64,000 nucleotides of DNA from the NCBI GenBank assembly GCA_028293285.1, contig JAQGPC010000177.1, forward strand, positions 1-64,000, written 5' to 3'. How positions within the stretch are numbered: position 1 is the first letter of the stretch; every line of letters begins with the position of its first letter. The DNA comes from Pedosphaera sp. (GTDB taxonomy: Bacteria; Verrucomicrobiota; Verrucomicrobiia; Limisphaerales; Pedosphaeraceae). The notes under the pieces are model-generated. The model made no database searches, was not told the origin of the DNA, and saw only the letters and a program-made list of their open reading frames with translations. The position numbers and the translations under genes are program-made. Of this stretch, positions 31,805 to 36,692 are shown one piece after another.

Positions 31805-31881
31805 GCGCGTGTAGCTCAATTGGATAGAGTGGCGCCCTCCGAAGGCGAAGGTTGTGGGTTCAACTCCCGCCACGCGCACCA
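31805..31881 (+). tRNA. tRNA-Arg (anticodon CCG)
   Basis: Acceptor arms GCGCGTG (31805-31811) and CACGCGC (31871-31877) pair fully, then discriminator A and an encoded CCA (31879-31881). The D arm begins AGCTCAATTGGATAGAG. The anticodon loop is CTCCGAA with anticodon CCG, on a stem ending CGCC/GGCG with one terminal mismatch. The T arm is GTGGGTTCAACTCCCGC. It reads the Arg codon CGG. Confidence 0.95.
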
Positions 31882-31981: not shown

Positions 31982-32617
31982 ATGAAATCCATTATACCCT
32001 GGGTGTTGGTGGTCGCATTGTTGGGAGGAGTTTATTTTTTGTATTCGGGCAGCAGTGCCAAGGATGGCGAGTTGGCCCAGTTGAGGCAGGACGGCGAGGA
32101 GTTGAAGAAGTTGCGCGCGGAGAATGAAGAATTGAAGAAGGTGTCGGCTGACAATGAGGATGTGAAGCGGTTGCGGAAAGATAATGAGGAGTTGCCACGG
32201 TTGCGGGGCGAGGTGCGCCAGTTGCGGGAGCAGGGGAAACAATTGACGAACCAGATGCAGGTTCTCCAGTCGCAACGGGTCCAAACGGCGCAGCAACAGC
32301 AGCAATTTCAACAGTTGGTTTCCGAGAACCAGACTTTGAAAAACCAAAGCCAGGAGTTGCAGCAGGCGAGCAATCAGGCGGCGACGGTGGCGCAACTCAA
32401 CGCTTGCGTGAATAATTTGCGGCAGATTGAAGGGGCGAAACAGCAATGGGCATTGGAGAATAAGAAATCGGCCGGATCGATACCTACGACGGCAGACTTA
32501 GCGCCTTATTTTCCCCAGAATGTTTTTCCCACATGTCCGGCAAGTGGGGCATATACGTTGAACACGGTTAGTGCTCATGCAGTATGTAGTATTCGGGGGC
32601 ATTCGATACCGCAATGA
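31982..32617 (+). CDS. membrane-anchored coiled-coil protein with prepilin-type C-terminal domain
   Basis: 211 residues. One N-terminal membrane helix (IIPWVLVVALLGGVYFLY), then about 100 residues of heptads rich in Leu, Glu, Lys and Gln (LRAENEELKKVSADNEDV and similar). From about residue 135 the sequence switches to NACVNNLRQIEGAKQQWALE ... FPTCPASGAYTLNTVS ... CSIRGHSIP. This tail is the one found at the C-terminus of type II/IV pseudopilin-like proteins in Verrucomicrobia and Planctomycetes, usually behind an N-methylation prepilin leader; that leader is absent here. It follows the tRNA gene by 100 bases. Function unknown. Confidence 0.75.
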   Translation: MKSIIPWVLVVALLGGVYFLYSGSSAKDGELAQLRQDGEELKKLRAENEELKKVSADNEDVKRLRKDNEELPRLRGEVRQLREQGKQLTNQMQVLQSQRVQTAQQQQQFQQLVSENQTLKNQSQELQQASNQAATVAQLNACVNNLRQIEGAKQQWALENKKSAGSIPTTADLAPYFPQNVFPTCPASGAYTLNTVSAHAVCSIRGHSIPQ

Positions 32618-32869: not shown

Positions 32870-34708
32870 ATGAATACGATTATTGAGGAAAATTTGAAGG
32901 GTATCGCAAATCAACTGCGAATTGACTGCATTGAAGCGACTACGGCGGCGGGAAGTGGACATCCGAGTTCGTGCCTTTCGGCAGCGGACCTGGTAGCGGC
33001 GTTGTTTTTTGGGCACATGCGGTATGATCCCAAGAATCCCCACAATCCTAATAATGATCGATTTGTTCTCTCGAAGGGGCACGCGGCCCCGTTGCTTTAT
33101 GCAGCGTGGGCGGAAGCCGGATTGTTTCCGAGAGAGCGGCTGCTGACTTTGCGTGAGTTGAGCAGTGATTTGGAAGGGCATCCTACGCCGCGACTTCCGT
33201 TCGTGGATGTCGCCAGCGGATCGTTGGGACAGGGGCTGAGCGTTGGGGTAGGGATGGCGCTGTGCGCGCGGATCGATAAATTGGATTATCGCACTTATGT
33301 GCTGATGGGCGATGGAGAATGTGCCGAAGGGTCAGTGTGGGAAGCGGCTTCGTTGGCGGGAATCAATAAGTTAAACAACCTGGTGGCGATTGTAGATGTG
33401 AATCGCCTTGGGCAGAGCCAACCGACGGCGTTTGGTTATGACGTGGAAGTTTACCAGAAGCGCTTTGAAGCTTTTGGCTGGCGCACGGAAGTGATTGACG
33501 GGCATGACATGGAAGAAATTCTGGAAGTGCTTGGGGCGGCTGGATTGGGCGAGCAACCGCTGGCGATCATTGCCAAGACTCAAAAGGGTCACGGAGTTTC
33601 CTTCATCGCAGATAAAGAGGGCTGGCATGGAAAAGCTTTTTCGAAGGAAGAGGCCCAGAAGGCCATTGCGGAATTGCAACCCACGGCAAAGAGCGGTTTG
33701 GCTGAGCCGATTCCAGCACCGAGCGATTTGCCTGCACCGAAGAATGAAGTTCCGACGAGTTATCCGCCGATCAGTTACAAGTTGGGCGATATGATTGCAA
33801 CGCGCGAAGCCTACGGTAATGCCCTGGTGCGTATCGGCGAAGCGGACGAACGCATCGTGGCATTGGATGGTGACACGAAGAATTCGACTTACGCAGACAA
33901 GTTTTTCAAGAAATTCCCGGAGCGTTCGATTGAATGTTTTATTGCGGAACAGAACATGGTGGGAGCGGCCACAGGTATTGGCACGCGCGGCAAGGTGCCG
34001 TTTGCGTCCACGTTCGCCGCGTTCTTTACCCGCGCGTTTGACCAGATTCGCATGGCGGCCATTTCGATGGCGAACGTGAAGTTGGTGGGATCGCATGTCG
34101 GCGTGAGCATCGGTGAAGATGGATCGTCGCAGATGGCGCTGGAAGATTTGGCGATGATGCGCGCGGTGGAGGGCAGTGTGGTGCTGTATCCTTCCGATGC
34201 CGTATGCGCGGAGAAATTGGTGGAGCAGATGGCGTTGCATAAGGGAGTGGCTTTCCTCCGCACTTCACGCCCGAAGACGCCGGTGATTTATAATAATGAC
34301 GAACAATTCCCGGTTGGCGGCGCGAAGATTCGCAAGCAGGCAGCCGGTGATAAAGTGACGGTAGTCGGTGCGGGAATCACGCTGTTCGAAGCATTGAAGG
34401 CGGCGGATGTGTTAGCGAAGGAAGGGATTGGAATCACGGTCATTGATGCTTACAGTATCAAACCATTGGCTGCGGATGTGATTCGTGGCGCGGCTCAAAA
34501 GACCAACAACCTTATTCTTACCGTGGAAGATCATTATCCAGAAGGTGGATTGGGTGATGCGGTGGCAGGCGAGTTGAGTGTTGATGGTATCAAAGTCCAT
34601 AAATTGGCCATCAGGGAATTGCCACATTCAGGGAAACCGGAAGAGTTGGTGGCTAAATATGGGATAGATGCGGCTGCCATTGTTAAGAAGGTGAAATCGA
34701 TTGTTTAA
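32870..34708 (+). CDS. tkt: transketolase
   Basis: 612 residues from ATG 32870, which has GGGGAAC as ribosome site; upstream in-frame codons are not family-like. The N-terminal thiamine-diphosphate domain has GSGHPSSCLSAADLVAALFF and the metal-binding GDGECAEGSVWEA ... NNLVAIVDVN. The Pyr domain follows with FIAEQNMVGAATG, and the C-terminal domain ends at about residue 610. It moves two-carbon units in the non-oxidative pentose phosphate and sugar rearrangement pathways. The length matches the shorter, animal/archaeal-like transketolases rather than the 660-residue E. coli type. It ends in a strong terminator. Confidence 0.95.
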   Translation: MNTIIEENLKGIANQLRIDCIEATTAAGSGHPSSCLSAADLVAALFFGHMRYDPKNPHNPNNDRFVLSKGHAAPLLYAAWAEAGLFPRERLLTLRELSSDLEGHPTPRLPFVDVASGSLGQGLSVGVGMALCARIDKLDYRTYVLMGDGECAEGSVWEAASLAGINKLNNLVAIVDVNRLGQSQPTAFGYDVEVYQKRFEAFGWRTEVIDGHDMEEILEVLGAAGLGEQPLAIIAKTQKGHGVSFIADKEGWHGKAFSKEEAQKAIAELQPTAKSGLAEPIPAPSDLPAPKNEVPTSYPPISYKLGDMIATREAYGNALVRIGEADERIVALDGDTKNSTYADKFFKKFPERSIECFIAEQNMVGAATGIGTRGKVPFASTFAAFFTRAFDQIRMAAISMANVKLVGSHVGVSIGEDGSSQMALEDLAMMRAVEGSVVLYPSDAVCAEKLVEQMALHKGVAFLRTSRPKTPVIYNNDEQFPVGGAKIRKQAAGDKVTVVGAGITLFEALKAADVLAKEGIGITVIDAYSIKPLAADVIRGAAQKTNNLILTVEDHYPEGGLGDAVAGELSVDGIKVHKLAIRELPHSGKPEELVAKYGIDAAAIVKKVKSIV

Positions 34709-34753
34709 ACCTGTCTATTAGCTTAAGTTGCTGATTATAAGGTCCTTGTAATA

Positions 34754-34790
34754 AAGCGCCCTGCGAAAATTCGCCGGGCGCTTTTTTGTT
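34754..34790 (+). terminator. Rho-independent terminator of the transketolase gene
   Basis: AAGCGCCC (34754-34761) pairs with GGGCGCTT (34776-34783), with an additional inner GCGAA/TTCGC stem, followed by TTTT and TGTTTTT. Confidence 0.88.
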
Positions 34791-34836
34791 TTTCCAGTTG
34801 GTATCTCCTTTGCTGCTAACCGGCAGAGTGATTTAT

Positions 34837-36015
34837 ATGACAACGAACTTATTGGAGATCAACAAAATTGGAACCGCACAGTTGAGAGCCAGGCTGTGGC
34901 TGGGGATGGTATTAGTATGCTTTTTACTGGGCGGCTTTTGCACCGTTCGTGCCGAAGTAATGAAGTGCGTTGTTTGCGATAAAATCATTCTCGAAAATTA
35001 TTATATTTTTAAGGACAAGTCGCTTGGGGGAGAGAAGAAGGTTTGCAAAGAGTGTGAAAAGCTGGAAGCCAAATGTTTTTTGTGCAGCCTGCCGGTGCGA
35101 GGCAGCCATGAGACTTTGAAGGATGGTCGAGTCATCTGCGCCCGAGACTATCGTGAAGGAGTCCATGAAGACACCGAGGCAAAAAAGATTTGCGAAGAGG
35201 TGCGGGATGAATTGAACCGGGCCTTTTCACGGTTCATGACTTATCCCGGTCAGAATGTGGTGCTTGCCACCGTCGATAAATATCACCTGGAAAGTTTGTT
35301 TAAGACAACCGGTTATGACCATTGTGTTTCCATATTTGGAGCCACGCAGAGTAATCCGCTCGCCAATGATACGTACATGCATTCGATCAGTATCCTCAGT
35401 GATTTGAAGAAGCCGCGCCTGATGGCGGTTTGCGTCCACGAATATACGCATGCCTGGTTTTCGGAAAATGTAAGCAAGCAACGGAGAGCGGTCATTTCCC
35501 AAGAAACGGTGGAAGGACTTTGTGAATTGATGGCTTACAAGTTCATGGAGAATCATCGCGAGACTTATGAAATGGAAGTAATCAAATCGAGTGATTACAC
35601 GAAAGGGCAGATTACCGCTTTGTTGGAAGCTGAAAATCGTTACGGATTAAATATGGTACTGGAATGGATGAAGTCCGGGGAGGATGCCAAACTTGACGTG
35701 AATAATTTGGATCGCGTGCGATTTGTGGCAGGCGGCCAATCGAGGCCTGTTCAAGCTATGGCGGCAATTCCAGTTGCGCAACAAGTCGCGGTTGTTGCTG
35801 CTCCCACAGCCTTGATGCTTAAAGGGATTTCAGGGTCGAGTCAGCGACGGTTTGCCTTGATCAACGACAGCACTTTTGAAGCGATGGAGAAGGGGAAAGT
35901 CCGCCTCGGTCAGACGAATGTGTCGCTTCGCTGCCTCGAAATCCGGCCGGGTTCGGTAGTGGTGCAATTGGATGGTGCGAGTGAGAAGAAAGAGCTTTTC
36001 CTGCGCGTTCAGTAG
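34837..36015 (+). CDS. secreted LIM-domain DA1-like metallopeptidase
   Basis: 392 residues from ATG 34837, with a signal peptide ending near VRAEV. A LIM-type zinc finger follows: C44-x2-C47-x22-C70-x2-C73, then C80-x2-C83-x17-C101-x2-D104, the eight-ligand pattern of LIM domains, with six residues instead of two between the halves. The catalytic part has H201-E-Y-T-H205-AW, then ETVEGLCELMAYKF, closely paralleling the HEMMHAW ... EEGICQ motifs of plant DA1 peptidases. The last about 60 residues (RRFALINDSTFEAMEKG... LRCLEIRPGSVVVQLDG) form a small beta domain seen in other exported proteins of this group. Expected to be a periplasmic or surface zinc peptidase; its substrate is unknown. Confidence 0.82.
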   Translation: MTTNLLEINKIGTAQLRARLWLGMVLVCFLLGGFCTVRAEVMKCVVCDKIILENYYIFKDKSLGGEKKVCKECEKLEAKCFLCSLPVRGSHETLKDGRVICARDYREGVHEDTEAKKICEEVRDELNRAFSRFMTYPGQNVVLATVDKYHLESLFKTTGYDHCVSIFGATQSNPLANDTYMHSISILSDLKKPRLMAVCVHEYTHAWFSENVSKQRRAVISQETVEGLCELMAYKFMENHRETYEMEVIKSSDYTKGQITALLEAENRYGLNMVLEWMKSGEDAKLDVNNLDRVRFVAGGQSRPVQAMAAIPVAQQVAVVAAPTALMLKGISGSSQRRFALINDSTFEAMEKGKVRLGQTNVSLRCLEIRPGSVVVQLDGASEKKELFLRVQ

Positions 36016-36131
36016 GAGTGTACGCCAAGAAATTCCGGATGGAAGATGGGATATAAATCTTCGGCAGGGTAGGGCTTTAATCCACGTTGCAAACCTGGCA
36101 GGTTTGATGCAAATTGCTTTGGGGAAAGAAC

Positions 36132-36692
36132 ATGATAGAAGTTCCCAAATATTTAAGAGGCCAGTTGTTGTTGGATAGCGGACAACTGAGTGGTTCATTT
36201 TTCCAAAGGACGGTCGTCTTGGTTTGCCAGCACGATGCGGAAGGCGCATTCGGGCTTGTCCTCAACCGGGATAGCGGAAACAAGCTCGGAGAGATGGTTA
36301 TGGCAGACTTGCCGGAACAGCTTAAAGACCAGGAGCTTTACCTTGGCGGACCGGTGCAATTGTCGGCCTTGAGTTATCTGCACTCGGACAATTTTCTTCC
36401 TGAAGCGAGTGTCATACCCAATTTGGACTTGGGCCATTCTTTGGAATCGCTGGTTGAAATTGGGGAATCATTTTCGCCGGGCAAGAAGGTGAAGCTTTTT
36501 GCCGGTTATGCGGGGTGGAGCCCGGGCCAGCTTGAGGAAGAGATGAAGCGGAAAGCCTGGCTAATACATCCGGCCACGGTGGATCTGGTTTTTGACACGG
36601 AGCCTGACCAACTTTGGCAGTATGTGCTTCGCCAAAAAGGGGGCATGTATCGTGTGCTCGCCCAGATGCCGGAAGATATTTCGCTAAACTAA
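36132..36692 (+). CDS. yqgE: YqgE/AlgH family protein
   Basis: 186 residues from ATG 36132 (GGGGAAAGAAC ribosome site). The family opening RGQLLLDSGQLSGSFFQRTV is present, followed by GLVLNRDSG, LYLGGPV and FAGYAGWSPGQLEEE. The UPF0301 fold is known from structures, but its reaction is not established; AlgH affects alginate regulation in Pseudomonas. Nine bases separate it from the next small gene. Confidence 0.92.
   Translation: MIEVPKYLRGQLLLDSGQLSGSFFQRTVVLVCQHDAEGAFGLVLNRDSGNKLGEMVMADLPEQLKDQELYLGGPVQLSALSYLHSDNFLPEASVIPNLDLGHSLESLVEIGESFSPGKKVKLFAGYAGWSPGQLEEEMKRKAWLIHPATVDLVFDTEPDQLWQYVLRQKGGMYRVLAQMPEDISLN

Follow-up and report, generated by a model that had tools for sequence, protein, structure and literature searches.

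A putatively exported LIM-like/DA1-like zinc metallopeptidase of Pedosphaera with a predicted GspC-HR/PilP-type tail

What would a relative of DA1, from a peptidase family familiar from organ-size control in plants, do in a bacterium, and apparently outside the cytoplasm? The question is raised by one gene of Pedosphaera sp. (assembly GCA_028293285.1), located in the first 64,000 nucleotides of contig JAQGPC010000177.1, the whole stretch that is called the window here. The original prediction described the product as a secreted LIM-domain protein with a DA1-like peptidase, and proposed a bacterial ancestor or a transferred homologue of the plant enzymes. Residues 323–392, which it overlooked, form a separate conserved beta domain (Table 1). 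With about even confidence, the protein is taken here for a Sec-exported DA1-like zinc protease that is tethered by an HR/PilP-type tail to a secretin, where it would process or clear proteins.

Table 1. Features of the protease gene and its upstream border, in window coordinates
Feature	Coordinates	Strand	Basis
CDS, 392 aa, LIM-like/DA1-like zinc metallopeptidase with C-terminal GspC-HR/PilP-type domain, putative export	34837..36015	+	ORF open throughout
Signal-peptide-like N-terminus, residues 1–39, ..TVRA-EV	34837..34953	+	Hydropathy heuristic, AlphaFold helix 9–35; cleavage site judged by eye
LIM-like eight-ligand zinc finger, residues 44–104, C-x2-C-x22-C-x2-C-x6-C-x2-C-x17-C-x2-D	34966..35148	+	Alignment
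DA1-like gluzincin-type peptidase domain, about residues 111–300	35167..35736	+	PF12315; M1 aminopeptidases at Z about 10
HExxH active site, H201–H205	35437..35451	+	Invariant in 16/16
Third zinc ligand E226, E-G-[LFIV]-C-E-L motif	35512..35514	+	Invariant in 16/16; ligand role inferred from clan
Unstructured linker, residues 301–322	35737..35802	+	pLDDT <50 for 300–319; high pN/pS
C-terminal GspC-HR/PilP-type beta domain, residues 323–392	35803..36012	+	Predicted fold, structural matches
Terminator-like hairpin and T-run between transketolase and protease genes	34753..34793	+	-22.3 kcal/mol, z -5.1

Zinc finger and peptidase of the head

An in-frame TTG at 34786 would give a longer reading frame; the ATG at 34837 yields a plausible export signal, modelled as a helix by AlphaFold (mean pLDDT of the full protein 85.8). 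Export and metal binding are both suggested by the sequence. The putative zinc ligands of the finger are C44, C47, C70, C73, C80, C83, C101, and D104. HEYTHAW corresponds to H201–W207, and the downstream motif ETVEGLCELMAY starts at E223 and contains the third metal ligand, E226. Both the finger and the HEYTHAW motif with its downstream partner had been predicted, and both are borne out by 16 aligned relatives, in which C44, C47, C70, C73, C80, C83, C101, H201, E202, H205, W207, E226, C229, and E230 are invariant and position 104 is D, H, or E. Finger and HExxH are kept in every one of these relatives, and such conservation of ligands and active site is far beyond chance. In four pairs with mostly saturated synonymous sites, pN/pS was 0.26–0.51 in the LIM-like, peptidase, and tail segments vs. 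0.57–0.86 in the linker.

We are not aware of measured activity for a LIM-like/DA1 peptidase from bacteria. The head could be catalytically dead or a regulatory metal sensor, with finger and HExxH as structural remnants; in the plant enzyme, the finger mutation C274Y alone kills DA1 activity, so that activity may depend on a partner (PMC5322733). A dead head is nevertheless highly improbable, as the catalytic and finger residues, save the variable eighth ligand, are invariant in 16/16 and the head is under purifying selection. We infer that the head is proteolytic.

The term LIM domain, used in the original prediction, has to be narrowed. Canonical LIM domains have two residues between their zinc modules and histidine as the third ligand. 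The canonical domain is ruled out here by the spacing of six residues, by C70 as the third ligand, and by the Pfam LIM (PF00412) score of 14.5 bits vs. a cut-off of 22.9, which covers the second half only (profile positions 28–55). The same profile matches 10/16 relatives at E ≤ 1 (best 2.5e-4). What stands is an eight-ligand finger that is, by its sequence, of the LIM-like kind found in DA1 proteins. Its half-to-half spacing is 5 or 6 in all 89 DA1-like rows compared, and x22-x6-x17 is found in most rows of the exported-looking group. At the eighth ligand, the 40 non-redundant rows of this group have D (36 rows), E (three), or H (one), and all 49 DA1-like rows from elsewhere have C.

Assignment of the peptidase to the DA1-like family is supported, with PF12315 itself at the border: the query protein scored 24.8 bits (E 1.6e-5) in one run and 25.2 bits in another at a cut-off of 25, a position at the threshold that counts against the assignment. 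A relative from the same genus (L007) scored 34.7 bits, and 15/16 relatives matched at E ≤ 1 (best 1.5e-8). The protein has the HExxH with the downstream E-G-x-C glutamate (H201, E202, H205, E226, and C229, all 16/16) and a LIM-like four-pair zinc finger ahead of the peptidase, as expected of DA1-like proteins. Profile-profile alignment of finger and peptidase gave E 3.3e-22 over 220 columns with a Ktedonobacterial group, E 2.4e-35 over 221 columns with another Chloroflexota group, and E 5.3e-38 over 195 columns with a group from another class of Verrucomicrobiota. LIM-like finger and peptidase are, on these alignments, homologous end to end across the four DA1-like groups. In an unrooted tree of the 89 rows, made by a quick method and including six Ktedonobacterial rows with CxxH where others have CxxC, each group is set apart by a branch (SH-aLRT 99, 94, 91, and 100); L094 (head cut short), L059 (unrelated-looking, with a sub-cut-off Pfam score), and identical cores do not figure in it.

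Structural comparison groups residues 111–300 with M1 aminopeptidases and other HExxH enzymes. Over this region the full model matched the M1 aminopeptidases 1z1w (Z 10.2, rmsd 3.5 Å, 149 residues aligned) and 6ea4 (Z 10.0), as well as 3o0y (Z 10.3, rmsd 4.3 Å, 195 aligned). The M1-like predicted fold is in keeping with the assignment of DA1 to clan MA, with the motif HEMMHx15EE, by Dong et al. (PMC5322733). M1 aminopeptidases (gluzincins) share the peptidase fold and, with some relatives such as L007, the HExxH-x18-E spacing, but Pfam M1 gave 16.4 bits vs. 27.7, and a protein of this size is without the M1 N-terminal domain. Foldseek with the whole model returned nothing at E ≤ 0.001, and an NCBIfam search of the protein had no match. 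Among solved structures, the single-protein search gave chance HLA matches only (E at least 0.014); in the profile search, the finger weakly matched RBM22 (best E 3.4e-4) as well as LIM chains, and no DA1 structure came up.

Plant DA1/DAR proteins (PF12315, Arabidopsis DA1) have the same order of parts, a LIM-like finger directly before an HExxH...E-G-x-C peptidase. The bacterial protein differs in looking exported, in its extra HR/PilP-type tail, and in having neither UIMs nor a canonical LIM: Pfam found no UIM and no full LIM in the query, and only the signal-peptide-like stretch lies ahead of C44. Its HExxH-to-E spacing is x20, longer than in the HEMMHx15EE quoted for plant DA1 (PMC5322733). 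No ubiquitin system is implied for the bacterial protein, and if exported it would have no evident access to ubiquitin for an activation by ubiquitylation as in the plant DA1/DAR subfamily. As a small, ubiquitin-free protein it may be useful for probing the effect of a LIM-like finger on a peptidase.

Distribution among bacteria

Bacterial kin are already known. Burroughs in 2011 reportedly described prokaryotic LIM domains as partners of membrane-associated peptidases. A LIM-like/DA1 peptidase of Roseiflexus is in print (Burroughs 2011, as cited in Dong 2017, PMC5322733), and thus the LIM-like/DA1 head as such is not new. A literature search, with most subscription journals outside its reach, found no paper on an exported, HR-tailed DA1-like form, and PMC3482391 mentions neither LIM nor DA1. 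The present protein extends the DA1 family to an exported-looking bacterial branch with its own tail.

Among 40 genomes from its genus, family, and order, 23 contain a match to the protein at E ≤ 0.001. Sixteen of the 46 matching rows, from 15/40 genomes, match over the head, and the other 30 over the tail alone. The protease is present in six of the eight genomes of the family. Named genomes yielded 36 loci in all: Verrucomicrobia account for 34, with Limisphaerales, Pedosphaera, or subdivision 3 as the label of many, and Ktedonobacteria for two. PF12315 matched 32/288 genomes across the phylum (30 over cut-off), 20/201 in the phylum of Ktedonobacteria (10 over cut-off), and none of 14 control genomes; of the places matched across the phylum, three without a locus (G207, G209, and the second of G239) were left out of the proteins read. 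No relative was confirmed in viral contigs (39 pattern stretches), and none was found in plasmids. A defence or phage gene was rejected, given no PADLOC match and weak PHROG matches only (E at least 0.02).

Export signal and tail are distributed differently. The original prediction of a signal peptide is supported by a strong N-terminal hydrophobic stretch, scored by a hydropathy heuristic rather than a signal-peptide program, in 36/40 rows of the Pedosphaera-type group; it was also found in 28/28 rows of the other-class Verrucomicrobiota and in 0/15 Chloroflexota and 0/6 Ktedonobacterial rows. The tail is present in 40/40 rows of the Pedosphaera-type group and in 0/28, 0/15, and 0/6 of the others, with a tail model whose construction from this group and tail homologues favours detection there; the other DA1-like proteins end 78–91 residues after HExxH, which leaves no room for a tail. 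The export signal would thus be common to both Verrucomicrobiota branches and the tail belong to one. The HR profile matched 11/145 genomes of the phylum at E ≤ 0.001, ten of them weakly, so that such tails belong largely to Limisphaerales.

The other-class proteins (L032–L058) resemble the Pedosphaera type in looking exported and in having finger and peptidase. They differ in the eighth ligand (C), in the lack of an HR tail, and, for most, in one to three extra CxxC..CSxxC finger-like units in front. The Chloroflexota LIM-like/DA1 peptidases (Roseiflexus; Ktedonobacteria L095 and L096), homologous in finger and peptidase end to end, look cytoplasmic, have C as the eighth ligand, and lack the C-terminal tail. 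Several tandem CxxC fingers precede the peptidase in Chloroflexota L130, L136, L137, and L139, and Ktedonobacterial proteins have extra LIM domains, canonical-looking as judged by eye. Because cytoplasmic-looking Chloroflexota forms score up to 66 bits with the DA1 model, the exported form looks, from its sequence, like a side branch rather than the likely donor type. Roseiflexus is the bacterial kin named in Dong 2017 (PMC5322733).

C-terminal tail and secretins

The tail modelled alone with 55 sequences reached pLDDT 95.3. With VIA-align, its best match was the GspC HR domain (3oss_C; Z 8.3, rmsd 2.2 Å, 59 of 65 residues aligned), together with PilP (3jc8, Z 7.3; 2ivw, 7.0, rmsd 2.5 Å, 64 aligned; 2lc4, 6.9; 4av2, 6.8; 2y4y, 6.6; 2y4x, 5.8), GspB (4wfw, Z 5.9), and PulC HR (6hcg, Z 5.4). 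Nine of the ten top matches are GspC/PulC HR, PilP, or GspB, at Z values in the middling range. Foldseek ranked the same family first, weakly (2y4y_B, E 0.13). Pfam PilP, T2SSC, and T2SSB matched neither the query nor two stand-alone tail homologues, T2SSB reached a sub-cut-off 13.3 bits on a thioredoxin-like tail homologue, and the sequence profile of the tail found no secretion protein in PDB.

GspC HR binds the secretin N0 domain via its first strands (PMC3169554), and the PilP C-domain binds PilQ N0 similarly (PMC3441751). The present tail shares with GspC HR, PilP, and GspB the predicted fold of its 70 C-terminal residues and homologues encoded beside secretins. There, the domain is part of an inner-membrane platform; here, it is the tail of a putative exported enzyme. 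At 16/29 tail-only places, a secretin match follows a stand-alone tail homologue in the same orientation at a distance of 0.9–1.7 kb, within the limit of 3 kb used in the 18 genomes searched for secretins (one tail place, G034, in a genome not among the 18, is left out of the count); a 17th lies at 5 kb. In the Pedosphaera genome, which has secretins at C117, C88, C22, and C135, a 159-residue tail-domain protein (G000:C88) is encoded immediately ahead of a secretin (122.1 bits), after PilM (92.5 bits) and two further genes. The gene order resembles a pilMNOPQ operon; the genes at the PilN and PilO places have no Pfam match over cut-off, and these two names therefore rest on position and size. 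The secretin-linked setting of the tail homologues supports the predicted HR/PilP fold.

At the other 12/29 places the tail ends a protein of another kind, thioredoxin-like in nine cases, redoxin-like in one, and with Sel1 repeats in two, as assigned by Pfam for four fused-tail proteins and by common sequence for the remaining thioredoxin-like ones. The tail profile finds three clear copies in the Pedosphaera genome (protease, thioredoxin-like, and PilP-like) and one weak one. Thioredoxin-like proteins with this tail look exported (L102:5192–5932, L109, L110, L113–L115, L117, and L029; in the Pedosphaera genome, G000:C110), and the Sel1-repeat and redoxin-like ones are L111:1679–2515, L112:1322–2128, and L116:1333–2556.

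Several results speak against docking, namely the absence of secretins beside the protease genes (0/12, for the 12 of 16 protease places in genomes searched), the position of the gene between transketolase and yqgE, the lack of a Pfam PilP/T2SSC match for the tail or its stand-alone homologues, the absence of secretion proteins from the PDB matches of the tail profile, the Foldseek E of 0.13, and the middling Z of 5–8. Instead, the tail could be an SH3-like beta module that binds peptidoglycan or another periplasmic protein, and the enzyme a periplasmic protease with general housekeeping duties and no link to secretins. This is rather unlikely. It would fit the common range of the Z values, with a Tudor domain (7sxi) in eighth place at Z 5.9, and a gene that is not near secretins and lies in a conserved tkt/yqgE/uvrB setting, but it leaves aside the sequence relationship of the tail to proteins encoded directly upstream of secretins (16/18 genomes searched) and the pil operon gene order around the stand-alone homologue.

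Docking at a secretin, which the predicted fold and the gene context of tail homologues point to, would work as follows. The DA1-like zinc metallopeptidase would be exported by Sec, its LIM-like finger may pack on the peptidase and position or gate the substrate, and the HExxH/E226 site would cut peptide bonds. The HR/PilP-type tail, via the flexible linker, would tether the enzyme to a secretin at its N0 ring; the PilQ/GspD-like secretin of the cell's pilMNOPQ-like machine is the most likely partner. Its substrates, by guess, would be proteins in transit or stalled at the channel, which it may process, trim, or clear, and same-tailed exported enzymes (thioredoxin-like) may fold or repair proteins at the same site. 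As the tail is related to docking parts of secretin and pilus channels, the protease probably trims proteins at a secretion or pilus channel rather than acting in the manner of plant DA1.

Head/tail mosaic and genomic setting

Between the Pedosphaera genome (G000) and a second species of the genus (G001), proteins of the same locus are 26% identical in the finger, 32% in the peptidase, and 79% in the tail, with 86–88% in the flanking tkt, uvrB, and yqgE. A second genus (G007 vs. G005) gave 40, 32, and 69% for finger, peptidase, and tail, and 87 and 92% for tkt and uvrB. The like-headed pairs run across the genera (G000–G007 and G001–G005), with heads 55–62% and tails 64–67% alike; the tail relations in the second genus are a near tie (69 vs. 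67%). Among 780 non-independent pairs of 40 proteins, G000–G001 stands out most (head 31%, tail 80%, z 5.4). Tail identity averages 68% in the eight pairs that combine one head type with the other, vs. 33% (sd 8, maximum 61) in 631 other pairs with heads at 25–42%. Slow change in the tail does not by itself explain this mosaic. Head exchange, or tail conversion between copies at one locus, would account for it on the sequence evidence, and a varied head with a constant tail fits a fixed dock with changing duties.

A head that varies freely on a kept tail would also suit an exoprotease cargo, with the HR-like tail serving as secretion signal or as a contact for the gate on the way through the secretin, and with the enzyme acting outside the cell on environmental protein. 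The exported-looking N-terminus and the secretin-partner fold of the tail agree with such a cargo. It is quite unlikely, however, as HR and PilP domains are known as fixed machine parts and not as cargo signals (PMC3169554 and PMC3441751), and a role in the periplasm fits the thioredoxin-like and Sel1 proteins that also carry this tail.

Extending the docked-protease reading, it is tentatively proposed that the PilP/HR domain is a mobile docking tail in Limisphaerales, which brings LIM-like/DA1 proteases, thioredoxin- or redoxin-like proteins, and Sel1 scaffolds to the secretin as a station for processing and quality control at the channel, and that protease heads of deeply diverged types replace one another at the locus on a tail that stays specific to the genus. 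If the tail docks, secretin machines would recruit accessory enzymes via a copied structural domain, and the mosaic would be a natural domain-swap experiment.

The protease gene is flanked by transketolase and AlgH/YqgE genes, with uvrB beyond. The order tkt, protease, yqgE, uvrB is kept in all five genomes of the same family whose locus was compared, and tkt and/or yqgE are also retained at several other Verrucomicrobia loci. An operon with transketolase was rejected in view of the strong terminator-like hairpin between the two genes; a separate terminator scan of 34600–36250 did not list this hairpin, and no sigma-70-type promoter was found in the same interval. Farther upstream are a tRNA-Arg (ccg) gene at 31805–31881 (+) and, at 31982–32617 (+), a gene for a 211-residue membrane-anchored, coiled-coil-like protein without a Pfam match over cut-off, which accompanies the tkt/protease locus in several relatives and whose C-terminus we take to resemble pseudopilin-type proteins of Verrucomicrobiota.
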